Below are positions 6,960 to 34,583 of a DNA stretch of 64,000 nt, piece after piece. Within the stretch, counting starts at the first letter, position 1. Every line of letters begins with the position of its first letter. Source of the DNA: Paenibacillus psychroresistens (lineage in GTDB: Bacteria; Bacillota; Bacilli; Paenibacillales; NBRC-103111). The position numbers were made by a program, and so were the translations under genes. The notes beneath the pieces were generated by a model. It was not told where the DNA came from. It searched no databases and saw nothing but the letters and a program-made list of their open reading frames with translations. The stretch covers positions 2,208,001 to 2,272,000 of the forward strand of contig NZ_CP034235.1 of the NCBI RefSeq assembly GCF_009728935.1. The letters are read 5' to 3'.

Positions 6960-8627
6960 TTGAAAAATTATTTAATGACTCTGACTGCAGCAGTTTTAGT
7001 ATTTGGTATTATTGTATCAGGTTGCTCCAGTACTAAAAAAGATGCGGACAATACAGAGAATACGGCTGCAGCTACAAATGGTAGCGAATCCGCTAAAGTG
7101 GTAAATATAAGTGTTTTTGCACAGCAAGGCACGGATCAGGATTTGAAGACAAATTTGTTTACTAAAGTCGTCGAGGAAAAAACCAATGTCCATTTTGATT
7201 GGACGACAGTACCTTTTGATGGAGCAGCTGAAAAAAGGCAGATTTCGCTAGCTAGCGGAGATTACCCAGCCTTGTATATGCTTATTCCATGGGTTGATAA
7301 GTTCTCCCAAACGGATTTGATTCGTTTCGGCAACCAGGGTGTACTTGTCCCATTCAACGATTTGATCGCTAAATATGCGCCGAATATCCAAAAAGTCATA
7401 GAATCAAATGAGTACTATAAAGCAATGAATACTGCGCCTGACGGCAAGATATATGGCCTCAACCAATTAAATGAATGCTTCCATTGTTCATATCCCAATA
7501 AAATGTGGTTGAACACTAAATGGCTGAAACAGCTGAATCTTGAAGTGCCTAAAACGACCGAGGACTTTAAAAAAGTGTTGGAAGCATTTAAAACACAAGA
7601 TCCAAATGGCAACGGCAAGAAGGATGAAGTTCCATTGAGCGGTTCCACAGAAATCTACGGTGTACATGTCATCCCGTATCTGATGAACGGATTTATTTAT
7701 GACGATGACAGAACGTATCTGACCCTTAATGGCGGCAAGGTGGATATTGCAGCCAATAAGAATGAATGGAAAGAAGGCTTAACGTACATCAAGTCATTGT
7801 TTGATGAAGGCTTGATTGACCCGGGTGCATTCAGCCAAAATGCAGAAGCTTTTAAGAAAATTGGCGACAATGCAGATGCACAGCTTCTTGGTGCTGGTGT
7901 TGGCATGCATCCTGCCATTTTTGTTAATACAGCGCCAGGTAACAAATTCGGCAATGATTATAATCCTATTCCACCGTTGACTGGACCACATGCAGCGTAT
8001 TCGACTTATGTCTATCCAGTCGATCCAGGAGCAACATTTGTCTTAACCAACAAAGCTAATGAAGAACAGCAAATAGCTGCAATTAAAATGCTGGACTATG
8101 TTTTCACTCAAGAAGGACAGCTTTTAGGTAATTATGGGGAAGAGAATATAGATTGGACAAAACCAAAAGCCGGAGATGTAGCGATTGAGAAAAGTGCAAC
8201 GCCGATTTTTGCTACAATTGCTTTAAAAGATGGGGAAAAACCGCACAATAGCTCATGGGGTGCTTTAGCGCAATACAATCACAGCAAGGATTTTCGTAAT
8301 GGATGGGTTCAAGCGACCGATATTTATGGATCAACGGGTTATGAGCGCAGACTTCAAGAAGCAACCAGTCTATATGACGGGCAACAGCCAGAAGAAGTAT
8401 TTCCACATTGGGCTATTTGGATTGACCCTGCTGCATCTGACCAAGCGAGCATGATGCAAACGAATATTAAGGATTACATCGATCAGAATGCGCTTCAATT
8501 TGTAACAGGCGGGAAAAGCCTAGAGAAGGATTGGGATTCCTATATTAAAGGACTTGAAGCTTTAAACTTGAAAGGTTACTTGGAGATCATGCAGAAGGCG
8601 CTTGATTCATCAACTGCAACTAAGTAA
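6960..8627 (+). CDS. Extracellular solute-binding lipoprotein (importer 1)
   Basis: About 555 residues. The N-terminus is a lipoprotein signal with lipobox IVSGC, then a low-complexity Ser/Thr/Asn/Ala tether, then the large two-lobed binding domain of the LplA-like proteins of Paenibacillus. An ATG at 6939 is in frame, but its first codons contain the ribosome binding site (AAGGGAGAGG at 6944-6953) of TTG 6960, which gives the normal signal peptide start MKNYLMTLT. It captures oligosaccharides outside the membrane for the two permeases upstream. The sugar is unknown. A good terminator follows the stop codon. Confidence 0.88.
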   Translation: MKNYLMTLTAAVLVFGIIVSGCSSTKKDADNTENTAAATNGSESAKVVNISVFAQQGTDQDLKTNLFTKVVEEKTNVHFDWTTVPFDGAAEKRQISLASGDYPALYMLIPWVDKFSQTDLIRFGNQGVLVPFNDLIAKYAPNIQKVIESNEYYKAMNTAPDGKIYGLNQLNECFHCSYPNKMWLNTKWLKQLNLEVPKTTEDFKKVLEAFKTQDPNGNGKKDEVPLSGSTEIYGVHVIPYLMNGFIYDDDRTYLTLNGGKVDIAANKNEWKEGLTYIKSLFDEGLIDPGAFSQNAEAFKKIGDNADAQLLGAGVGMHPAIFVNTAPGNKFGNDYNPIPPLTGPHAAYSTYVYPVDPGATFVLTNKANEEQQIAAIKMLDYVFTQEGQLLGNYGEENIDWTKPKAGDVAIEKSATPIFATIALKDGEKPHNSSWGALAQYNHSKDFRNGWVQATDIYGSTGYERRLQEATSLYDGQQPEEVFPHWAIWIDPAASDQASMMQTNIKDYIDQNALQFVTGGKSLEKDWDSYIKGLEALNLKGYLEIMQKALDSSTATK

Positions 8628-8655
8628 TAATCCCAATTCATTTAAAGCAGCCATG

Positions 8656-8688
8656 AAGACGTCTCTATCGAAGGATAGGACGTCTTTT
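8656..8688 (+). terminator. Rho-independent terminator of importer 1
   Basis: AAGACGTC and GACGTCTT form an 8-bp stem that continues, past one bulged T, into CTATC/GATAG around a GAAG tetraloop, followed by a T run. Confidence 0.85.
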
Positions 8689-21766: not shown

Positions 21767-24700
21767 TTGGATAATAATAACATGGTTAGATTGAGGTTTT
21801 TTTCAGGTTGGATGGTTTTTGTTCTGTTATTAAGTCTGGTTTTAGGAAGTGTTGGTATCCAACAAGCAAGTGCTGCTTTTGGAGCGTCCACAAGATATCA
21901 GGCGGAAACAAGTAACTTAGCAAACGTCACTGTAGCATCTACCAACACCGGTTATTCTGGATCAGGTTATGTAACTGGTTTTACGAGTCAATGGTCACAG
22001 ATCGGTTTCGATAAGTCAGTAAGCTCGTCAATTGCAGCAAAGCTAGATATCCGGTATGCCAATGCGACAGGAGGAACAGTGACGAATTTATCATTATTTG
22101 TTGGCAGTAATAAAATTCAGGGATTGGTACTTCCGGTAACCGCATCCTGGAGTACTTGGAGCACTATAACAGTTACTTTCACTATCCCAGCTGGTTATCA
22201 AAACATAAGAATCAAAAGTGAAACTGACATAGCATCGTCCGCTAATATAGATTATATGGACTTATCCATTGATGACGGCACTGGAACACCAACACCAACG
22301 CCAACAGCTACACCAACTCCATCGGCGACACCTTCACCTACTCCAGTACCAACTATAGTAGTGACACCTGTGTTTAATCCAGCGGCAGGTACTTATGCTT
22401 CAGCACAATCCGTGACGATCAGCACAACTACATCAGGTGCTACTATCCGTTACACTGTAGATGGAACCACACCAACAACAGCTTCTACAGCTTATACTTC
22501 AGCAATAAGTGTAGCATCTACCAAAACTTTAAAGGCTATAGCCATTAAACCAGGCATGACCAATTCGGCTGTTGCAACAGCGCTATACACTATTAATACG
22601 ACTACTCCAACACCGACACCAACAGCCCCTCCAGTGGGCACAACCAAATACGAAGCTGAGAATGCGGCTTTGTCAGGTGGAGCTGTGTTCAACAACGGAA
22701 ACTCTGGTTATTCGGGAACTGGATTTGTCGAAGGCTATATTTATAATGCCAATGCAAGAACCGATTTTACTGTCAATGTCGGTACAGCTGGAAGCCGAAA
22801 TATCACGCTACACTATTCTGCTGGATATGGAACGGTATCTTCGCTGGACTTAATCGTCAACAGCATCACAATCCGAACATTAAATCTTGGGGGTACCGGA
22901 AGCTGGAACTCATGGGCGGATGATGTAGAGAGCATCAACCTAAACAGTGGTGTGAATACGATTTCTTTTAAAAGCAACCAATCTGCAAACAATGTAGCGA
23001 ATCTAGATTATCTCTCCATTCAGGCAGATCCTGTGCCTATACCTGGGGCCTTCAACCAAACAGCACCGGTCAACGGATCCACAGGAGTGAATGTAACGCC
23101 AAGCTTCACATGGGGAAGCTCATCTAATGCTGCTAGTTATACGTTGGTTGTATCAACAAACAGCTCTTTTACCAGTCCAGCAATTAATTTAAGCGGATTA
23201 ACTACTAATAGTTATTCTCCTAATACAGCATTATCTGCTAATACTCTGTATTACTGGAAAGTAACTGCAATAAATGCGAGTGGTTCAAAATTAGCCACTA
23301 ATTCAGGAATTTCATTTACAACAGGTGCGGCACCAACGCCTACTCCCGTGCCAACAGCTACACCAACACCTGCACCAACACCAACGCCAGTACCTGGTTC
23401 AACTTTCTACATCTCGCCAAGTGGCAACGATTCCACGGGCACTGGAACGAATGGAAACCCATGGAAGTCATTGGCTTATGCGGCCGCTCATGTTCCAGCA
23501 GGACTAGGCAATACGATATATTTAAAGGCAGGAATCTATTATGAAACTGTCGCAACTATTCTGCCTCTTGGTGTTAATATCCAAGGTGCGGGAGAAAGTA
23601 CAACTACAGTTACTTCAAATGGTGCCATACCTGCCCCTGGAGTCGATCAGGGCTCAGCGGATTGGAAGCTTTGGTATGAGGGCACTTTGATTCAGCTTAC
23701 CTCTCCAGGATATTCCGGTGCCAATCCTAGATATGGAGCTCCTGAGACCATGGTTAATTCGGCTAACGGCAATCAGACCCTAAGCGGTTTTACTATTGAC
23801 GGTAATAATAAACAGATTAAAGCTGGAGTATGGGTAGAAAATCGCAATAACGTTACGATGCATCATGTGACCTTTAACAACCTGCAAATGCGAGGAGCTG
23901 TATTTGGTCGCAGCGATATGTACTGGTATATTCCTCTTCCAGATGGCAAGTGGATGTACAATACTACCATTTACAATTGTACCTTTACTAACTCAGGCTC
24001 GCAGCAAGGCAGCGAAACCTTAGGTAACTTAAACATAGCTGGATTAGATGGAGCGGATATTTACAATATTACGATCAATGATACGATGGGGTATGGCATC
24101 AAGTTCATTTTTGTTGGTCATTACAGAAACGTGAAGATTCACGATACTACAATTAATGTTAACGAAACAGATGCACAGTGGGGCGAGAAAATTTCCATTG
24201 AGCTGTGGAATCTCCATTATGGCAATGAAGTTTATAACATTACCTGCAATACGTGGATGTCATTCGTCAATCATGCCCAAATGACTGCTTATCAGCCAGT
24301 TGGGACGGCTACGAATAACCTGAAGGTTCACCATGTGCGGATGGTTGATCAGGACGGTTCAAGCGGTAAAGAATCGATTGAAGCCGCGCTTAGCGGTGTT
24401 GAAATTTATGACACTTATATTCAAGATAAAGGTTTTGGAATCGCTATTTGGCGCGGAGGAGGCAGCTATGAGCTGAAAAATTATATTATTCGTAATAATA
24501 TATTTGCTAATGTTAATCGCACGCCTGGTTTTGGCTTTGGGAATAGCGCTGCTGTATTTGTCCCGGATGCTGCCAGTAATATCAAGATTTACAATAATGT
24601 CTTCGATCATATGGGGAATGGACTAAATCTTAATTCCGCAAGCGGTGTGGATATTAAAAACAATGTGTTTATTAATACTGAGGGAGCAGATGTTGAGAAT

Positions 24701-24952
24701 GGCAGCGGAGTTACTTTTATGAACAATCTTAAATACCATACGAATCCGCAAAAAGCAAGCTTTGTTATGGTAAATGGACCCACATTAGGTACAGGGAATA
24801 TCCTTGGTCTTCCAGGTTTTAAGAATACAGGAAACCGTTGGGATACCTACTATCAATCGGCTTCAGCAAGCAGCTTGGTAGTCAATAATGGGGTGAATGT
24901 GGGACTTCCTTACAATGGAACTGCTCCTGATATTGGACGCTGGGAGAATTAA
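21767..24952 (+). CDS. Secreted multidomain right-handed beta-helix protein 1 (CBM, FN3-like, Pro/Thr linkers)
   Basis: 1061 residues; TTG start nine bases after AAGGAGG. Signal peptide to about residue 36 (QQASAA). Order: CBM6/35-like module (38-170), Pro/Thr linker (171-195), chitobiase C-terminal-like module (197-278), linker, CBM35-like module starting TTKYEAEN (291-423), FN3-like module (425-521), linker (522-543), then a parallel beta-helix from the opening FYISPSGNDSTGTG (545) to the end. Beta-helix proteins of this kind are mostly polysaccharide lyases or glycosidases; the catalytic residues cannot be named here. It is a paralogue of the protein at 31380, sharing CBM35, FN3-like and helix parts and the last residues APDIGRWEN. 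The substrate is presumably a plant or microbial polysaccharide. Confidence 0.88.
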   Translation: MDNNNMVRLRFFSGWMVFVLLLSLVLGSVGIQQASAAFGASTRYQAETSNLANVTVASTNTGYSGSGYVTGFTSQWSQIGFDKSVSSSIAAKLDIRYANATGGTVTNLSLFVGSNKIQGLVLPVTASWSTWSTITVTFTIPAGYQNIRIKSETDIASSANIDYMDLSIDDGTGTPTPTPTATPTPSATPSPTPVPTIVVTPVFNPAAGTYASAQSVTISTTTSGATIRYTVDGTTPTTASTAYTSAISVASTKTLKAIAIKPGMTNSAVATALYTINTTTPTPTPTAPPVGTTKYEAENAALSGGAVFNNGNSGYSGTGFVEGYIYNANARTDFTVNVGTAGSRNITLHYSAGYGTVSSLDLIVNSITIRTLNLGGTGSWNSWADDVESINLNSGVNTISFKSNQSANNVANLDYLSIQADPVPIPGAFNQTAPVNGSTGVNVTPSFTWGSSSNAASYTLVVSTNSSFTSPAINLSGLTTNSYSPNTALSANTLYYWKVTAINASGSKLATNSGISFTTGAAPTPTPVPTATPTPAPTPTPVPGSTFYISPSGNDSTGTGTNGNPWKSLAYAAAHVPAGLGNTIYLKAGIYYETVATILPLGVNIQGAGESTTTVTSNGAIPAPGVDQGSADWKLWYEGTLIQLTSPGYSGANPRYGAPETMVNSANGNQTLSGFTIDGNNKQIKAGVWVENRNNVTMHHVTFNNLQMRGAVFGRSDMYWYIPLPDGKWMYNTTIYNCTFTNSGSQQGSETLGNLNIAGLDGADIYNITINDTMGYGIKFIFVGHYRNVKIHDTTINVNETDAQWGEKISIELWNLHYGNEVYNITCNTWMSFVNHAQMTAYQPVGTATNNLKVHHVRMVDQDGSSGKESIEAALSGVEIYDTYIQDKGFGIAIWRGGGSYELKNYIIRNNIFANVNRTPGFGFGNSAAVFVPDAASNIKIYNNVFDHMGNGLNLNSASGVDIKNNVFINTEGADVENGSGVTFMNNLKYHTNPQKASFVMVNGPTLGTGNILGLPGFKNTGNRWDTYYQSASASSLVVNNGVNVGLPYNGTAPDIGRWEN

Positions 24953-25650: not shown

Positions 25651-26169
25651 ATGAGCTTTGCGGCATTCTTACAGGTGTTTCTGGCTATTATATTTATCGT
25701 AAGCGCGTTTCCGAAGCTGGCTAAATTAAAAGCGTTTGCTAAAACATTGGAAGAGCTTGGACTCCCTCCTTGGATGTCCAGGATTGGATCATGGGGTGTT
25801 CCCGCTGTAGAACTCATTGTTGCTGGAATCATTCTTGTTGATAAAATTCGAATCTTCGGACAACTGGGCATTAGTGCTCTCTTGATTAGCTTTGTTTGGG
25901 CTGTTTGGCGGGCTAAAGGTAAAAGTCTCGATTGTAATTGCTTCGGTAATCTAGCAACTGAACAATTTGGAAGAAAAACGGTATACCGTATCTTAATTTT
26001 GGCCGGCGCTGATACATATTTATTTTTATATACACGGTTAACCGGGCTTCAGCATGCAAGCTTAATGGAATGGTCCTCGGCAATTTTTCTCACCTTATCC
26101 ATTCTAGCTGTTTATGGCCTTTTGTCTGCAATGATCCGTTTTCAAAAAATGATGGTCAAGAAATCGTGA
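25651..26169 (+). CDS. MauE/DoxX-like redox-associated membrane protein
   Basis: 172 residues with four or five transmembrane helices, of which the first (FLQVFLAIIFIVSAFPKLAK) has the typical MauE start. A CNCFG motif follows the helix-3 loop (SLDCNCFGNLA), a cysteine pair commonly present in this family. AGGAGGTG precedes the ATG. Family knowledge: MauE, with the thioredoxin-like MauD, is needed for disulfide formation in the small cysteine-rich subunit of methylamine dehydrogenase. No methylamine dehydrogenase gene is present here; instead a thioredoxin-like protein and a six-cysteine peptide follow directly. A role in passing oxidising or reducing equivalents across the membrane for that peptide is inferred. 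Confidence 0.85.
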   Translation: MSFAAFLQVFLAIIFIVSAFPKLAKLKAFAKTLEELGLPPWMSRIGSWGVPAVELIVAGIILVDKIRIFGQLGISALLISFVWAVWRAKGKSLDCNCFGNLATEQFGRKTVYRILILAGADTYLFLYTRLTGLQHASLMEWSSAIFLTLSILAVYGLLSAMIRFQKMMVKKS

Positions 26170-26179
26170 GGTTAATCCC

Positions 26180-26710
26180 ATGGGCATAAATCAATTGGCA
26201 CTAATAATGCAATATTTGGTACTACTTCTTTTGGCGGTAGCCATAACTCAAGTATACCAGCGTTCAACTCGTCGAGAGCTTGCTCACAGTAACCATGGCT
26301 TTCCCAAGGGGATGCTGTTTCCAAAGCTGCAAATAACTACGGTGTCCGGGCAAGAATTTCCCATAATTCGCCCCCGTACAGAAGGGACGATAGTAGCCTT
26401 TACTTCAACTACCTGCAAATATTGCGCTTCCTTGTATCCGCTGCTTACGCCATTTCAGCATAAACAGCCTCAGCTTAAGGTGTTAGTCCTGATAGCTGGC
26501 AGTCTGGAAGATACTCTGGCTAAGGCTAAAGAATTCAATTTAAATGAGCTTGTAGTATCATCTATTTCCTTTGATCAATTGACCGAGTTCGGAACTAAGC
26601 TTGTCCCCTTTGCCTATTTTCTTGGGGCTGACGGGAAAGTGTTGGCGCAAGGCGGTGTGCAGACCGAGAATGATTTGCAGTTGCTTCTAGAATCAGCTCG
26701 TACCGCATAA
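26180..26710 (+). CDS. Membrane-anchored thioredoxin-like protein (TlpA/MauD type)
   Basis: 176 residues. An N-terminal transmembrane anchor (about 7-24) is followed by an extracytoplasmic thioredoxin fold with the active-site CKYC in TSTTCKYCASLYP near residue 75 and the cis-Pro position in LVPFAYFLGADG. It ends with a GGVQTENDLQLLL helix. It lies 10 bases after the MauE-like gene and 36 bases before the Cys-rich peptide gene. A MauE plus MauD-like pair next to a cysteine-rich product is the arrangement known from methylamine dehydrogenase maturation; here it probably forms or shuffles the disulfides of the peptide (inference). Confidence 0.88.
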   Translation: MGINQLALIMQYLVLLLLAVAITQVYQRSTRRELAHSNHGFPKGMLFPKLQITTVSGQEFPIIRPRTEGTIVAFTSTTCKYCASLYPLLTPFQHKQPQLKVLVLIAGSLEDTLAKAKEFNLNELVVSSISFDQLTEFGTKLVPFAYFLGADGKVLAQGGVQTENDLQLLLESARTA

Positions 26711-26746
26711 TTTCTCAGGATCGCCATTGAAAGGAGGTGAAAACTA

Positions 26747-26860
26747 ATGATCCAAACAGCTAGTTCTTGCAATTGCTATTCCTATCCATGTGTTTGGTAC
26801 GGAGATCGGAATGGTCACATCGAGATTTGTGACGGCAACTCTTATTGCACTTGTCCATAA
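26747..26860 (+). CDS. 37-residue six-cysteine peptide, candidate secreted product
   Basis: A short frame with the best ribosome binding site of the region (AAGGAGGTGA at 26731-26740, six bases before ATG); an in-frame stop at 26738 fixes the start. Cysteines at 8, 10, 15, 28, 34 and 36 give the pattern CxC-x4-C-x12-C-x5-CxC. The C-terminus is CTCP. It also has four Tyr and one Trp (W17, right after C15-V). There is no Sec signal, no GG-type leader and no transmembrane segment, so export by the ABC transporter encoded next is likely. The preceding genes encode a disulfide-handling pair. A hairpin with T run follows the stop. I know no family for it. It could be a leaderless disulfide bacteriocin, a signal peptide or a redox peptide. 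Confidence 0.72.
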   Translation: MIQTASSCNCYSYPCVWYGDRNGHIEICDGNSYCTCP

Positions 26861-26871
26861 AGATGAGGTGA

Positions 26872-26913
26872 AACAGGGGCATCGCATCCTTCGCGTTGTC
26901 CTCTGTTTTTTTT
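26872..26913 (+). terminator. Terminator/attenuator between peptide and exporter genes
   Basis: AACAG pairs with CTGTT and the stem continues through G-rich/C-T-rich arms, followed by eight T. It is 12 bases after the peptide stop and ahead of the transporter, as in many bacteriocin operons, where a leaky terminator keeps the peptide message far more abundant than the transporter message. Confidence 0.65.
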
Positions 26914-26932
26914 CTGGCTTTTTGGAGTTCAG

Positions 26933-28795
26933 ATGAGCATAAAGGGGGGCAGTTATGTGAATGTATCTTCATCTTCTCGAATAATGGTTTGGAAAACAGC
27001 GGGGGCTGTCTTGCGGTTAATTTGGGGCAATGATCGCATGCTCTTGTTAGGCGCGGGTATGCTGCAAGTCGTTGCGGCAATCATACCGGCTCTGCAAATT
27101 TATACTACGAAGGAAATGGTGGATGTCCTATCCGAAGCATTGGTTTCCCCGAATAAAACCGCTTCCTTCCCTGCAGCGCTTGCTTGGGTTACTCTACAGT
27201 CCTTCTTGTTTGCATCCTTGACCGTTATGAGGTCTATAGGTGAGTACATGTCCTTGCAATTACAAACCCGAACATCCTTTCACATGGATAAGCAAATTGC
27301 CGAAAAAGCAGCAAAACTGCCTCTAAGCGTTTTTGATCAACCGACCTATTACGACCAACTGCAAAGGGTTTCAAACGGTGTAAGTCTTCGGACAATGAAT
27401 GTCATCCAATCCTTGTTTGCACTGGTCCAACACGTTTTTACACTGACGGCTGTCCTTATCGTTCTTGCAGCATTTCACTGGGCAGTTGCTGCCGCTTTAT
27501 TACTAATCCTAATTCCAAATATGCTTTTGCATATGCGTATTGGACAATGGCAATTCTGGCAAATGATCGCCCAAACACCGACGGCTAGACGCTCCAAGTA
27601 TATATTCCAACTATTATGTGGACGTGAAGCTGCCAAGGAGATTCGCGTTTTTGGGACAGCCATTTATTTGCGAGATCTCTGGTCCAAGCTTTTTTGGAAA
27701 AACGCGACGGAACAGCTGCGATTGCATCGTAAAACTTTGCTCAGCAGATCCGTTCACGAGGGCGGCGCTGAGCTTACTTTATATTTGGCCTGCATTCTAT
27801 TAACCTGGCTTTGTGTTCAGGGACGAATGACGGTAGGTTCCTTTGTTTCCATTTTTCAAGCTATGCGGAACTCACAAAACGCAATGTCTGGAATGGTCTT
27901 TACTCTATCCCGATTCTATCAAGACGCTCTCTATGTCAGTGAGTGGTTTACATTTGCTGGGATGGAGGAGGAGAGGTCCCCTGAAAAGCCAAGTACTTTA
28001 TCCGGATCTCTTCAAAAAGGAATAGAGGTTCGGGAATTGACCTTTCAATATCCAGGTGCGGTAGAGCCTGATCTTGATCAAATTTCTCTACACATTCATC
28101 CAGGTCAGAAGATTGCTATAGTAGGGGAGAACGGTGCAGGGAAAAGCACCCTAATTAAATGTTTAATAGGTTTATATTCTCCCAGTCAAGGTCAGATCTT
28201 ATATGACGGCATACCATTGGAGAGTCTGGAGCCTACGGATTTTCGTAAACGGGTTACAGCTGTATTTCAAGATTTTGTACAGTACCAGCTAACATTAAAA
28301 GAGAATATCGGCTTAGGCCATTTAGAGCAAATCAACAATACGGAAGCCTTAATACAGGCTGCTCACCGCACAGGAATAAATGAATGGTTAACTCTAAAGG
28401 CAGAAAGCCTGGAGACTCAGCTAGGAATACTTTTTGAAGGCGGGAAGGAACTATCCTTAGGACAATGGCAAAAGGTTGCGCTTAGTCGGGCTCTTTTTAA
28501 GGAGGCTGAGCTTGTTGTTTTGGATGAGCCAACTTCATCTATGGATCCCAAGGCAGAAGCCGAGCTGTACAGACTGTTCTCAACGCTGTCTGAAGGGAAA
28601 ATTTCCTTAATGGTATCCCACCGCCTGGGAAGCTGCAAGCACGCCGATCTTATTCTTGTCATGGAGAAGGGGCGTATTATTGAACAGGGAAACCATAATC
28701 AACTGATGAGCCAAAATGGAGTTTATGCAGATATGTTTCGAATCCAGGCAAATCTTTACCACATCGAAACAGTAAGTGAACCGATCATATCTTAA
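26933..28795 (+). CDS. ABC exporter, fused membrane and ATPase domains
   Basis: 620 residues. Membrane domain of six helices over about 1-330, then an ATPase with Walker A GENGAGKST (about 400), signature LSLGQWQK and Walker B ELVVLDEP. There is no N-terminal C39 peptidase, so it would not cut a double-glycine leader, consistent with the leaderless peptide upstream. Two starts are possible: ATG 26933 with GGAG upstream, or GTG 26957 with AGGGGGG upstream. As it follows the peptide gene, export of that peptide is the simplest role; homodimer formation is expected for such half-transporters. Confidence 0.85.
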   Translation: MSIKGGSYVNVSSSSRIMVWKTAGAVLRLIWGNDRMLLLGAGMLQVVAAIIPALQIYTTKEMVDVLSEALVSPNKTASFPAALAWVTLQSFLFASLTVMRSIGEYMSLQLQTRTSFHMDKQIAEKAAKLPLSVFDQPTYYDQLQRVSNGVSLRTMNVIQSLFALVQHVFTLTAVLIVLAAFHWAVAAALLLILIPNMLLHMRIGQWQFWQMIAQTPTARRSKYIFQLLCGREAAKEIRVFGTAIYLRDLWSKLFWKNATEQLRLHRKTLLSRSVHEGGAELTLYLACILLTWLCVQGRMTVGSFVSIFQAMRNSQNAMSGMVFTLSRFYQDALYVSEWFTFAGMEEERSPEKPSTLSGSLQKGIEVRELTFQYPGAVEPDLDQISLHIHPGQKIAIVGENGAGKSTLIKCLIGLYSPSQGQILYDGIPLESLEPTDFRKRVTAVFQDFVQYQLTLKENIGLGHLEQINNTEALIQAAHRTGINEWLTLKAESLETQLGILFEGGKELSLGQWQKVALSRALFKEAELVVLDEPTSSMDPKAEAELYRLFSTLSEGKISLMVSHRLGSCKHADLILVMEKGRIIEQGNHNQLMSQNGVYADMFRIQANLYHIETVSEPIIS

Positions 28796-28817: not shown

Positions 28818-30155
28818 ATGAGAATAAAAGTGGCATCAAAAGTCCACATTCTGAAAGGCATTCTTTTTTTAGCCATCCTGGGTCTACTAAGCGGTTGCTT
28901 CGCAGTTGACTCACAGAAGGATCCACAAGAGCTCATTCAATCTTCAGGCAAAGTAAAAGTTTTGCTTGCAGCATCTCAGAATCGATACTACGGGTATAGC
29001 GCCCAATCGTTCTTTACAAAAATGTATTCGGAGCCATTTCAATCCATCCATTCAGATATTCAGATTGAATTAATTTCACTGGACAAAGTAAAGAAAAATC
29101 CATCAGGTGAGCTTGATCTAGAAACCATTCGACAACTGATTGCAGATGAGCATCCAGATTTAATTTATATGAATTCCTCCCAGTATGAACAGCTAACCAC
29201 CGATAATAAACTAACTCTTTTGGATGCCAACATTGAACAAGGCGAGTTTGATATGAATGCTTTTTATCCACCTGTCTTGGAAGCATTGAATAGGGGAGGT
29301 TACTATGGATTGTCTCCAAGCTTCGATAGCTTAGCCCTGTTCTATAACAAATCGATTTTCGACTCGAAGAGTATCGCTTACCCAAAAGAAGGCATGACTT
29401 GGGAAGAGTGGTTTCGACTAGTAGCACAATTCTCGGTTCATGAAGCAGATAAGGCACGAATATATGGAATTTATCAGCCTCCCTACTCCAGATTAAGCGG
29501 CCTAGAATTGATTCGTTTCATTGGAGAGTCTATGGGACTTCCCAAATGGAAAGAAGAATCTGATGCCGATATGAATGAGTGGATACCCCTTTTGGATCGT
29601 TTCGCCTCTTTGTATCATTCCGGATCGATAGCGCCACCCGAAGCTCGCCAACTAGCTGTCTCCGCCTCAGACCATGGGAACGATAAATTTATGCAGGGTG
29701 CCGCTGCAATGACCTTTGCCGGTTCAGACTTTTTCCGAAACTTGTTGGACGTTCGTCGGGATCGAGAAGCATTTAATGACTGGGGAGTCGTTTCATTGCC
29801 GATCTTGGCCGATAATCCCAAACAAACATTAGGTTTCACTGCATACGAAATATATGGCATCCCTCTTGGCGCTAAAAAATCTGCAGCTGCTTGGCAGCTG
29901 ATTCAATATATTTGTGGAGATGATCGTGCCAAGCTTGCAATGGAGCCGCCGTTCAGATACTTCTCATCCAATCGCAAACAATGGCAGACGATTAACTTAG
30001 CGCCATTTACTGAATTGATCCCCGATAAAACGAAATCTTTCTTTAATTCTGCGGAAGTTACCAGCCATCAGGAGGAGCAGCATGCACTAGAGGCGATCAA
30101 AGAAGAAGGGAACGGTTGGAGTCTGTTATCTCTCTTTAGAAATTCCTATCGTTGA
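28818..30155 (+). CDS. Extracellular solute-binding lipoprotein, family 1, without its own permeases
   Basis: 445 residues from ATG 28818, placed seven bases after GAGGAGGG; an upstream ATG at 28776 overlaps the exporter gene and would spoil the signal. Lipobox LLSGC, then a family 1 sugar-binding fold (LDANIEQGEF; GLSPSFDSLALFYNKSIF; MTWEEWF). No importer permease is in this operon. It may feed a permease pair elsewhere in the window, or act as a surface receptor or immunity-like protein for the exported peptide; neither can be settled from sequence. Placed 22 bases after the exporter. Confidence 0.85.
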   Translation: MRIKVASKVHILKGILFLAILGLLSGCFAVDSQKDPQELIQSSGKVKVLLAASQNRYYGYSAQSFFTKMYSEPFQSIHSDIQIELISLDKVKKNPSGELDLETIRQLIADEHPDLIYMNSSQYEQLTTDNKLTLLDANIEQGEFDMNAFYPPVLEALNRGGYYGLSPSFDSLALFYNKSIFDSKSIAYPKEGMTWEEWFRLVAQFSVHEADKARIYGIYQPPYSRLSGLELIRFIGESMGLPKWKEESDADMNEWIPLLDRFASLYHSGSIAPPEARQLAVSASDHGNDKFMQGAAAMTFAGSDFFRNLLDVRRDREAFNDWGVVSLPILADNPKQTLGFTAYEIYGIPLGAKKSAAAWQLIQYICGDDRAKLAMEPPFRYFSSNRKQWQTINLAPFTELIPDKTKSFFNSAEVTSHQEEQHALEAIKEEGNGWSLLSLFRNSYR

Positions 30156-30196: not shown

Positions 30197-31131
30197 GTGA
30201 ATAGCATGATAAGATTCGGTGTTAACTATGTGCCTTCTAAGAAATGGTGGTACAGTTGGTTGGATTGGAACCCTGAAAGTATTCTAGAAGATCTGCAAGC
30301 TATCCGCAGCTTGGGAATGGATCATATTCGCATTCACTGTTTATGGCCTATATTTCAGCCTAATCCGGATTACGTTAGTGAAACAGCACTGAATAGACTT
30401 TACGAACTGTTGAATATAGCTGACGAATGCTCGATGGATGTTCAGATTACCGTGCTGAATGGATGGTTAAGCGGATTTTCATTCTATCCGGCGTGGAAGG
30501 GAGATAGGAATCTTTTCACAAACCGTGAAATGATTAAAGCGGAGAAGTTTTTATTCCAGCAAATTGCGAATAAAGTGAAGGATCATCCGAAATTTATGGG
30601 ATTCGATCTGGGCAACGAAATCAATGTTCTTACCTGGAAAGGAGACCGCTTCAGCATGGAGGAAGGCGACCTTTGGCAGACAGAAATGATGAGCTTTTGT
30701 GAGTTGGTTGCTCCAGGGAAATTCCATGTTAACGGTGTTGATCAAATCCATGGTTTTCGGATCAGGGCTTTTCTCGCAAGGCTTTAAGCAATGCGGGTTC
30801 GGCAACAGCTTTGCATACCTGGGTTAAATTCACTGAAGCCTTGGATTTATATGGATGGCAAGGCTCAGGCAGTTTACATCTGGCTGAATACTGCATCGAA
30901 TTATCTAAAGCTTATAGTCTAGATGCAGATCGTCCCATTTGGTTGCAGGAGCTAGGAGCATCCTCTTTATGGATGGCAGAAGAGCATATCTCTCCATTTC
31001 TGGAATACTCGGTGCGCAATGCAGCATCTTGCTCGAAGCTTTGGGGAATTACCTAGGTGAAACCAAGCGGGAAGCGACTTATGGAGCTTTCAGGGGATAA
31101 AGAATATTTAAGTAGGACAATAGATAGTTGA
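30197..31131 (+). pseudogene. Broken GH5-like glycosidase
   Basis: The first frame (30197-30787, GTG start or ATG 30206 after GGAG) is the N-terminal half of a TIM-barrel glycosidase, with the acid/base motif GNEIN in FDLGNEINVL. Near 30745 the frame is lost; one added base would restore a DHNPWFSD stretch continuing into GFSRKALSNAGSATALHTWVK, so a single deletion fits. The second frame stops at TAG 31054 after SCSKLWGIT, and the sequence after the stop (VKPSGKR) matches the family's end, so some 30-45 codons were also lost there. The gene is no longer functional as one protein. Confidence 0.82.
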
Positions 31132-31189: not shown

Positions 31190-31379
31190 AAATGTGAACA
31201 AGAATAGAAGGAAGATTTGAAGAGACAATAGAAGACTGGGGGTGATGGTTAATGAATAGTTTTTTGAATGGAGATCAAAAGTTAATTCTTAAGCGGTAGA
31301 AGTAGGCGGTTATTCTACTCTCAATCAAAGTTTCCTATCTCTATTCTTGTATCTTTCAATAGATAAGGTGGCAATGAAT

Positions 31380-34300
31380 TTGAGTATGAAAATAATGGAT
31401 ACTAAGCGATTTTTCTCGATGATCATGGCTTTTGTAATGGTATTTACTTTACTTATAGGGAGTGCTCGAGTCCAACAGGCCAGTGCCGATGGTAACACGA
31501 TTGAGGCTGAGAGCTATAATGGGATGTCAGGCATAGCCAATAACAGCACTTTCGTAGGCAGCTTGGATAATAACGATTGGGCGCAATACAACAACGTTCC
31601 TTTTGCGGCAGGAACTACTGGTTTCAGTGCGAATATAGCTGTGGATGCAGCATATGCAGGGCAAAAAATCGAGCTTCGTCTAGACAGTACAACAGGTACT
31701 TTAATTGGTACTTTGACAGTACAGAGCACAGGAGGCTGGAATACCTTTACTACCCAGAGCACCACAGTTACTGGAGCAAGTGGAACTCATAATCTTTATC
31801 TAGTATTTAAAGGGGCCAATGGTTTGGTTGAAGGAGTAGGGAATTTAGATTGGTTTAAATTCACTGGCAGCGCTACTCCAACCCCGACCCCGCCCCCGAC
31901 ACCAACCCCGACACCGGCTCCAACACCAGCAGCATTCAGTCAAACTACACCGGCTAGCGGAGCAACCAATGTCAATGTTAAACCTAGCTTTACATGGGGA
32001 ACATCAACAGGCGCTGTAAGTTATGCGTTGATTGTTTCGACCAATAGCAGCTATACGAGTCCATCTATTAACGTAAGCAATCTGGCGACAGCTAGTTATA
32101 CTCCAAGCACCGCTTTGGCTGCTAACACCCTATATTATTGGAAAGTAACGGCAACGAATGCTAACAGTTCAAAAATAGCGAGCAATGCGGGTATATCATT
32201 CACAACAGGCGCAGCACCGACTCCCACACCCACGGCAACTCCCACACCAACACCTACACCAACTCCTACGGCAACACCAACACCTCCTCCGGTGGGTACA
32301 ACCAAATATGAAGCTGAGAATGCCAGCTTATCCGGTGGAACTATTGCAACCTCTGGCTACCCAGGCAATTCCGGGACTGGTTATGTCGAAGGCTATCAAT
32401 TCAACGCAAATGCTCGTACAGATTTTACTGTTAATGTCGCTTCAGCCGGAAACCGTAATTTAACCCTCCGTTATGCAGCAGGGAATAGTACGGTTACCTC
32501 ACTTAATTTAATCATAAATGGAACTGTTATTAAGGCGCTTAACCTGCCCGCCACAGGCAATTGGTATACATGGGCGGATAAGCTGGAGAATGTAAGCTTG
32601 AATAACGGAGTCAACACAATCTCATTTAAAAGCAATTCGTCCTCTAGCGATGTTGCGAATCTAGATTATATCCTTTTGCAGGCAGATCCTACTCCATCAC
32701 CGACACCTGTGCCAACACCAGGGACATTCAGTCAATCAGCTCCAGTAAACGGTGCAACGAATGCCAATGTAAAACCTAGTTTCACATGGGGTGCTTCGAC
32801 CGCAGCAGCAAGCTATACATTAGTTGTATCAACGAACAGCAGCTATACAAGTCCTGCGATCAATGTTAGCTCTCTAACTGGAACAAGCTATACGCCAACC
32901 ACAGCTTTAGCTGCTAATACATTGTATTACTGGAAAGTTACAGCAACGAATGCAACTGGATCCCGATTAGCTGGGAATGCAGGTATTTCATTCACGACAG
33001 GTGCAGCACCAACACCAACGCCTACACCGTCGCCAACTCCAACTCCACCTCCTGGGTCAACCTATTATGTTTCGCCTAGCGGGAATGACAGCTCAGGTAC
33101 GGGGGCATCAGGAAATCCATGGAAGACGTTAGCTTATGCTGCGGCACATGTTCCGGCAGGTGTAGGCAGTACAATTTATCTCACTGCAGGGACGTTTGTT
33201 GAAACGAAGCCAGCGCTTATTCCGCTTGGCGTTAATATTCAAGGGGCGGGCGAAGCCAATACAATCCTCTCATCCAGTGGTGTAACGCTTGCGCCAGGCA
33301 TCAATCCAAGTGCTGCTGACTATAAGCTATGGTATGACGGCAGCTTGATCCAGCTTATTTCTCCTCATTACACCGTATTTCGCGATCCGACCAGTGCGGT
33401 AATTGCACCAGCTAATGGCAATCAAACCATTACTGGCTTTACTATTGATGGCAACAGCAAATCATTAAAAGCTGGTGTTTGGGTAGAAAACCGTAATAAC
33501 GTAACTCTGCATCATGTGACGTTTAAAAACTTGGATCAGCGTGGAGCCGTGTTTGGTCCAGGAGATAAAGATTGGTTTGTTTATCCGGCTTATTATATGA
33601 CAGGTACAAAAATTTACAATTGTACGTTTATTAATTCGGGAAAAAACCTTGGAGATGAGTCTATTGGCAATCTGAATATTGCTCAGCTTGATGGGGCTGA
33701 CATTTACAACATTACGATTAATGACAACCAAGGAGGATATGGAATTAAGTTTATTTACGATGGTTATTTAAAAAATGTAAAAATACACGATAGTACGATT
33801 ACGGTCAGTGAATCCGATCCGATGTGGGGCGAGAATATTTCTATTGAGCTTTGGAATCTGGGGACCGGAAATGAAATATACAACGTCAATTGCAATACTT
33901 GGTTATCCTTGGTCAATCATCCAGGCATTTTTGATGCACCGGTCGGTACGGAGAATATGAAGGTGCACGGAGTTAGAATGATAGATTTGGATGGAGATAG
34001 TGCTAAGGAAGCGATTGAAATTGCTGCGCCAGGCATCGAAGTTTATGATAGCTATTTTCAGAATAAGGGCTTTGGCATGGCATTGTGGGATATGGGACAT
34101 AAGAATATAAGCATTCATAACAATATATTCTACAACACTACAGAGCATAGCAATTGGGCTGGTGCTGGCGCAATCTATATCGACAACAGCAGAACCTGGA
34201 GCTTCACTAATATTAATATCTATAATAATGTGTTCGATACCTACATGAATGCTGTGAAAGTAACAGGAAGCAATATTAGTGGCGTGAATGTCATAAATAA

Positions 34301-34583
34301 TGCATTTCTGAATGTGGGTGTATCTGATCTTGAGGCTGTAGGCAGCAATATCGTATTCAAGAATAACCTGAAATATAATGCTGTCAGCAAGCCTTGGGTT
34401 ATTAATGGTGCGACAACTCAAGCCAACAATATCCTCGGAAATCCGGGTTATCTAAACACGGGAAGCAGATGGGATACATTCTATAAACCTAGCACTGCAA
34501 GCAGCTTTGCTGTGGATAAAGGGTTGAACGTAGGTTTGCCTTACAATGGTTCAGCCCCAGATATTGGACGCTGGGAAAATTAA
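31380..34583 (+). CDS. Secreted multidomain right-handed beta-helix protein 2, paralogue of the one at 21767
   Basis: About 1067 residues. TTG 31380 is preferred: AAGGTGG lies eight bases upstream and aligns with the site of the paralogue; ATG 31374, ATG 31386 and TTG 31347 are in frame too. Signal peptide ends near VQQASADG. Order: CBM6-like module (about 36-164), Pro/Thr linker, FN3-like (184-279), linker, CBM35-like (307-437), linker, second FN3-like (449-544), linker, beta-helix (559-end) opening YYVSPSGNDSSGTG and closing APDIGRWEN. Compared with the paralogue it has an extra FN3-like module and a different N-terminal CBM, with no chitobiase-like module. Probably a polysaccharide lyase or glycosidase; active site not identified. 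Confidence 0.88.
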   Translation: MSMKIMDTKRFFSMIMAFVMVFTLLIGSARVQQASADGNTIEAESYNGMSGIANNSTFVGSLDNNDWAQYNNVPFAAGTTGFSANIAVDAAYAGQKIELRLDSTTGTLIGTLTVQSTGGWNTFTTQSTTVTGASGTHNLYLVFKGANGLVEGVGNLDWFKFTGSATPTPTPPPTPTPTPAPTPAAFSQTTPASGATNVNVKPSFTWGTSTGAVSYALIVSTNSSYTSPSINVSNLATASYTPSTALAANTLYYWKVTATNANSSKIASNAGISFTTGAAPTPTPTATPTPTPTPTPTATPTPPPVGTTKYEAENASLSGGTIATSGYPGNSGTGYVEGYQFNANARTDFTVNVASAGNRNLTLRYAAGNSTVTSLNLIINGTVIKALNLPATGNWYTWADKLENVSLNNGVNTISFKSNSSSSDVANLDYILLQADPTPSPTPVPTPGTFSQSAPVNGATNANVKPSFTWGASTAAASYTLVVSTNSSYTSPAINVSSLTGTSYTPTTALAANTLYYWKVTATNATGSRLAGNAGISFTTGAAPTPTPTPSPTPTPPPGSTYYVSPSGNDSSGTGASGNPWKTLAYAAAHVPAGVGSTIYLTAGTFVETKPALIPLGVNIQGAGEANTILSSSGVTLAPGINPSAADYKLWYDGSLIQLISPHYTVFRDPTSAVIAPANGNQTITGFTIDGNSKSLKAGVWVENRNNVTLHHVTFKNLDQRGAVFGPGDKDWFVYPAYYMTGTKIYNCTFINSGKNLGDESIGNLNIAQLDGADIYNITINDNQGGYGIKFIYDGYLKNVKIHDSTITVSESDPMWGENISIELWNLGTGNEIYNVNCNTWLSLVNHPGIFDAPVGTENMKVHGVRMIDLDGDSAKEAIEIAAPGIEVYDSYFQNKGFGMALWDMGHKNISIHNNIFYNTTEHSNWAGAGAIYIDNSRTWSFTNINIYNNVFDTYMNAVKVTGSNISGVNVINNAFLNVGVSDLEAVGSNIVFKNNLKYNAVSKPWVINGATTQANNILGNPGYLNTGSRWDTFYKPSTASSFAVDKGLNVGLPYNGSAPDIGRWEN

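Follow-up and report, generated by a model that had tools for sequence, protein, structure and literature searches.

The question raised by this locus of a soil bacterium is what a 37-codon reading frame with six cysteines is for, standing as it does between two putative thiol-redox genes and the gene of an ABC exporter. An earlier note on this DNA had proposed a dedicated system for a disulfide-stabilised peptide, which could be a bacteriocin, a signal or a redox peptide. The analysis described here, in which the window is the whole stretch of 64,000 nucleotides, leads us to read the locus, with a probability of about 0.75, as a laterosporulin-type operon: the peptide would be made without a leader, would form three disulfides with the aid of the MauE-like and TlpA-like proteins, and would leave the cell through an ABC exporter free of a C39 peptidase as a likely antibacterial product.

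The peptide gene occupies positions 26747-26860 on the forward strand, as do all genes of the operon, and its product (MIQTASSCNCYSYPCVWYGDRNGHIEICDGNSYCTCP) has no leader. The cysteines at positions 8, 10, 15, 28, 34 and 36 follow the pattern CxC-x4-C-x12-C-x5-CxC-P (spacing 1-4-12-5-1). The Shine-Dalgarno sequence (AAGGAGGTGA, 26731-26740) scores 10/10 and lies 6 nucleotides from the ATG; the frame, its six cysteine positions and its near-perfect ribosome binding site are as the earlier note had described them. The peptide is slightly acidic (net charge -2; that of laterosporulin is -1) and matches no Pfam or NCBIfam family at E<=1, including the laterosporulin families PF17861 and NF033806. 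Structure prediction, performed twice, gave three strands at low confidence (pLDDT 55-58), and a fold search with this model returned zero matches. Searched against the PDB by profile, the first peptides gave chance matches only. As regards the animal-type (alpha/beta) defensin fold, a three-stranded sheet with its own disulfide connectivity, the cysteine spacing alone looks similar, the three-stranded model being of pLDDT 55-58 and having no fold match.

The gene is preceded by two genes of a putative redox pair. The first (25651-26169) encodes a MauE-like membrane protein of four helices, the CNCFG motif of which is kept in most relatives; the protein matches PF07291 with an E value of 2.4e-22 (80.1 bits, gathering cut-off 27) and is the only match to this family in the 8.1-Mb source genome. 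The second (26180-26710) encodes a TlpA/MauD-like protein of the thioredoxin fold, with a single membrane helix at its N-terminus and a CKYC active site, the CxxC of which is invariant across relatives. Its match to the MauD model TIGR02661 (E 5e-11, 42.4 bits) stays below the cut-off of 188.6, so it is not assigned as a MauD equivalog, and the match to ResA (E 2.4e-6) also lies under the ResA cut-off. The peptide gene is followed by a hairpin with a U run at about 26873-26914 (RNA fold -23 kcal/mol, z -2.25), which was absent from the output of a simple scan and is probably a terminator or an attenuator. Next comes the ABC exporter (26933-28795; PF00005, E 1.8e-35) with membrane and ATPase domains, in which no Peptidase_C39 domain was found with Pfam; as the peptide also lacks a leader, the locus does not qualify as a double-glycine/C39 bacteriocin system. 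These four neighbours agree with the assignments that had been made for them earlier.

Although it lies outside the coordinates of the earlier note, a solute-binding-type lipoprotein gene at 28818-30155 (lipobox LLSGC; PF13416, E 9e-14; start codon chosen from the sequence) is also part of the operon. It recurs in about one quarter of relatives, and homologues are found in the neighbourhoods of 11 other loci, in several of them directly 3' of the exporter. The protein is a candidate for an immunity or accessory function; no dedicated immunity gene was recognised at the operon. Among the operon genes neither LanB/LanC, LanM, radical SAM nor YcaO proteins were detected with Pfam and NCBIfam, so the operon does not count as a lanthipeptide cluster. 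Around the operon, two large paralogous secreted proteins of similar repeat-rich sequence are encoded at 21767-24952 and 31347-34583, and a glycoside-hydrolase-like frame at 30197-31056 seems to be broken in pieces (30197-30787 and 30811-31056), possibly a pseudogene or a frameshift.

Comparison with relatives settles whether the short frame is a gene. A search with the peptide only, in 105 genomes of its family, returned its own copy as the one convincing match, the weak matches being interrupted by stops or aligned in part, and the zero direct sequence homologues in the other 104 genomes could be taken for the sign of an untranslated chance frame near a redox operon. However, homologues that keep all six cysteines, with 31-47% identity to the window peptide, occur in a sister family beside the same genes (one copy in L070, two each in L071 and L072); in the genomes G246, G289 and G356 such homologues stand directly 3' of MauE-TlpA-ABC. 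A profile of the window peptide and the L070-L072 homologues retrieved two more copies in a genome absent from that profile (G759), directly after MauE-TlpA-ABC, at E ~1e-15. Six-cysteine homologues are thus present in four species, two of which have exactly CxC-x4-C-x12-C-x5-CxC; the spacing 1-4-12-5-1 is identical to that of the window peptide in the second copies of L071 and L072 (L071b and L072b). The copies are arranged in tandem and diverge outside the fixed cysteines, every cysteine being common to both members of homologous pairs compared in the same register. In homologous or sister copies dN/dS is mostly 0.04-0.5, the change being mostly synonymous. Of 25 peptides of the wider set, 21 finish with CC or CxC no more than two residues from the C-terminus, where residue shuffling gave an expectation of 2.3.

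Since the homologues keep the six cysteines, the sister copies are under coding constraint and such frames cluster at these operons (see below), chance is excluded and the frame at 26747-26860 is a real gene. Together with the 10/10 Shine-Dalgarno sequence, this makes an untranslated frame extremely improbable. The earlier note had advised looking in other genomes for short frames of this cysteine pattern beside MauE and TlpA-like genes, and had named as a refutation the lack of any cysteine-conserved homologue in relatives that keep the flanking genes; the search found such frames, with the exact spacing in two species, and all six cysteines are retained in four. In the exporter tree, the window exporter is sister to those of L070-L072 with support of 100/100. 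At another locus (L096, 8119-9102, oriented), a 43-residue six-cysteine peptide is encoded between TlpA and ABC in a tandem array of five or more copies that have diverged.

A characterised counterpart of the operon was found in Brevibacillus. Laterosporulin is a purified, defensin-like antibacterial bacteriocin, the gene of which has no leader and is accompanied by an ABC transporter without a protease domain; the published neighbours are a regulator, a hypothetical protein, the ABC transporter and a dehydrogenase, MauE being unnamed (PMC3293901). The peptide contains three disulfides, and heterologous expression of its cluster failed twice in a 2019 study (PMC6510442). At the B. laterosporus locus (L138), the genes of a LuxR-type regulator, laterosporulin, a Trx-like protein, an ABC exporter, a TlpA-like protein (FCSYC), MauE (CSCFGG) and a small one-helix protein run in one direction. 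When the exporter of this locus was compared with the window genome, the best of 139 hits was the window exporter (242 bits, the next one reaching 149 bits), and the best match of its TlpA-like protein in the same genome was the window TlpA-like protein. The exporters of the cassette and that of laterosporulin form a lineage (100/100) that excludes 14 further exporters encoded in the window genome, and within this lineage the laterosporulin exporter sits on a long branch and its exact place is uncertain.

Laterosporulin and laterosporulin10 (Brevibacillus; PDB 4ozk) resemble the window peptide in being leaderless and having six cysteines (50 residues in laterosporulin), and the laterosporulin operon likewise combines MauE with a TlpA-like CxxC protein and with an ABC exporter that is C39-less and falls in the clade of the window exporter. 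In contrast, the cysteine spacing of laterosporulin is 1-13-14-7-7, the peptides have no sequence similarity, and the Brevibacillus locus has extra Trx-like genes, a LuxR-type regulator and another gene order. Laterosporulin itself matches PF17861 and NF033806. If a laterosporulin-type operon is defined, as here, by a peptide gene with MauE, TlpA-like and C39-less ABC genes, all three of these partner genes are present in the window, the exporter being of the laterosporulin ABC lineage, beside a short leaderless frame with about six cysteines. Judged by its sequence, the window peptide is therefore placed outside the laterosporulin family and appears laterosporulin-like by gene context. The remark in the earlier note that no described family has this cysteine pattern holds for the peptide sequence; as regards the gene set it has to be amended, as a described bacteriocin shares it. 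No paper that ties MauE to laterosporulin or describes this peptide class was found in the literature searched, which was that outside subscription journals; the one apparent match for MauE with laterosporulin came from the author name Mauerer.

The same arrangement was then surveyed in other genomes. In six other genomes of the family, MauE and TlpA-like genes lie side by side, and in five of these they are followed by an exporter of the same kind. Each of the five loci has, at the operon, a short frame encoding 6-8 cysteines, located before MauE in three (L032, L033 and L035), in the TlpA-ABC gap in L036, as in the window, and after ABC in L037. At the sixth locus (L034) the MauE/TlpA pair is part of a type I lanthipeptide cluster (2780-2926 and 7594-8657, oriented) that also contains LanB-like and LanC-like genes and encodes a cysteine-rich precursor with a CYSSCCC end. 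Of 399 genomes from the order, 42 were positive with the MauE profile, and of 399 from the class, 16; at the level of the phylum, the source genome was the only one among 398 in which MauE of this type was found, and the search of plasmids found none.

Loci that combine MauE with an exporter of this clade number 47, and in 45 of them inspection revealed a Shine-Dalgarno-led small frame with at least four cysteines beside the operon (the exceptions are L105 and L106). Among small frames preceded by at least 7 bases of Shine-Dalgarno sequence, at least six cysteines are present in 32 of 49 near the operon versus 0 of 17 elsewhere (p 9e-7; loci picked by MauE only, background of 459 kb further away). 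At the MauE and TlpA loci without this exporter clade (L127-L136), no operon-linked peptide of this sort was found. The roughly 45 other loci with the same arrangement suggest that such peptides make up a large class, most of which is still undescribed.

Several loci of the survey show other variants. In L103-L108 the same MauE (doubled in several loci), TlpA and ABC are found in apparent lasso-peptide clusters with a B2-type protease and an asparagine-synthetase-like cyclase; the precursors in L103, L104 and L108 combine a leader like that of lasso peptides with a cysteine-rich core of unusual length (~60 residues) that starts with GDCxWGTE. In L075, L081, L087, L090 and L095, MauE of the MCSGSYLY/8-Cys subgroup has lost one or both CxC cysteines (YQWFGG or CNWFGG), with the TlpA gene retained. 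A distinct family of 66-76 residues with eight cysteines (TCTYYSNC...CCGC...GRNRF...C) adjoins the same cassette, on the same strand as MauE in L076 and on the opposite strand in L079, L080, L086, L100 and L101.

From these comparisons, the laterosporulin operon included, we infer the following course of events. The 37-residue peptide would be made without a leader, and the MauE-like and TlpA-like CxxC proteins would act as a thiol-redox pair dedicated to it, aiding the formation of three disulfides from the six cysteines. The exporter would then release the folded peptide unprocessed, except that the initiator Met may be removed. Once outside, the peptide would most likely inhibit bacterial competitors, and self-protection may come from the exporter, the downstream lipoprotein (28818-30155) or both. 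The dedicated system suggested by the earlier note gains support from the short cysteine-rich frames beside MauE and TlpA in relatives, with the disulfides themselves being presumed. With respect to its three proposed functions, the laterosporulin locus favours a bacteriocin; by analogy, and considering also the tandem divergent copies and the patchy distribution, the window peptide is probably antibacterial. Counting against this reading are the deviating cysteine spacing of laterosporulin and the failure of the window peptide to match its family, the low-confidence model that matches no fold, the five MauE relatives of one subgroup in which the CxC motif is lost, the fact that no dedicated immunity gene was recognised, and the slight acidity of the peptide, although laterosporulin shares this last trait.

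In respect to the side of the membrane on which the disulfides would form, the flank C-terminal to the TlpA helix carries more positive charge than the N-terminal flank in 36 of 43 proteins, and in 28 of 39 the MauE loop with CxC exceeds the loop ahead of it in positive charge; both patterns suggest the cytoplasmic side. The TlpA homologue of the laterosporulin locus has a charged stretch at its start and no N-terminal helix. As one of two thioredoxins from the same genome, used as a control of this charge-based topology, was ambiguous, a cytoplasmic placement of the MauE and TlpA active sites is only a lead. A broader view, which we hold as tentative and rather doubtful, is that Bacilli possess a large unrecognised class of leaderless disulfide-rich peptides defined by MauE-TlpA-ABC, of which laterosporulin alone has been characterised, and that the disulfides are made at the membrane, perhaps at its cytoplasmic face, before the folded mini-protein is exported.

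Two other readings accept the gene and differ about its product. The same biosynthesis could yield a signal or self-recognition peptide in place of an antibacterial one: the highly variable non-cysteine sequence and the tandem copies would suit specificity signals too, and the window peptide combines small size with a non-cationic character. We regard this as unlikely, as laterosporulin, the sole characterised product of a homologous operon, is a bacteriocin and the recurrent neighbours include no conserved sensor kinase or receptor. It is also conceivable that the cysteines bind metal or bear another modification (thioether or heterocycle) and that MauE/TlpA only keeps them reduced, a role that a thiol-redox pair could play and that would fit the lanthipeptide cluster of L034, where free thiols are needed. 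The operon genes include no LanB/LanC, radical SAM or YcaO, however, and laterosporulin, with its homologous gene set, has three plain disulfides, which makes this a decidedly improbable account.

The laterosporulin-type reading, if true, would turn one bacteriocin, the laterosporulins having so far been regarded as isolated curiosities, into a class open to mining by its cassette rather than by peptide sequence and spanning many cysteine frameworks. MauE, for which a disulfide role has only been presumed so far, would gain a small and easily assayed substrate. Should MauE/TlpA be the missing folding machinery, this would explain the failed expression of the laterosporulin cluster and supply a ready expression cassette.

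Other known systems share parts of this arrangement. Actifensin from Actinomyces is a six-cysteine, defensin-like bacteriocin that shows a 6-Da mass deficit (PMC6989792); unlike the window peptide it has a 32-residue leader and is encoded in a different operon, for which the accessible part of the report mentions neither a MauE nor a thioredoxin gene. The decRiPPter candidate families from Streptomyces include mauE, and in one family mauD, in putative peptide clusters (PMC7794033); as far as the accessible part of that report goes, these are predictions with no tie to laterosporulin, leaderless six-cysteine peptides or this exporter clade. In the case of humidimycin, a lasso peptide of the siamycin/humidimycin type, the DoxX-family HumE and the thioredoxin HumF are assigned to disulfide formation (PMC7168211). 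The lasso cyclase, leader protease and leader peptide of such clusters are all absent from the window operon, and the likeness lies in the use of a DoxX-type membrane protein and a thioredoxin protein for the disulfides of a ribosomal peptide. Compared with the MauE/MauD maturation of methylamine dehydrogenase in Paracoccus, the window operon contains no methylamine dehydrogenase genes, has a peptide exporter and encodes a protein scoring far under the MauD cut-off; common to both are a membrane protein of the MauE Pfam family and, adjacent to it, a MauD-like thioredoxin protein.
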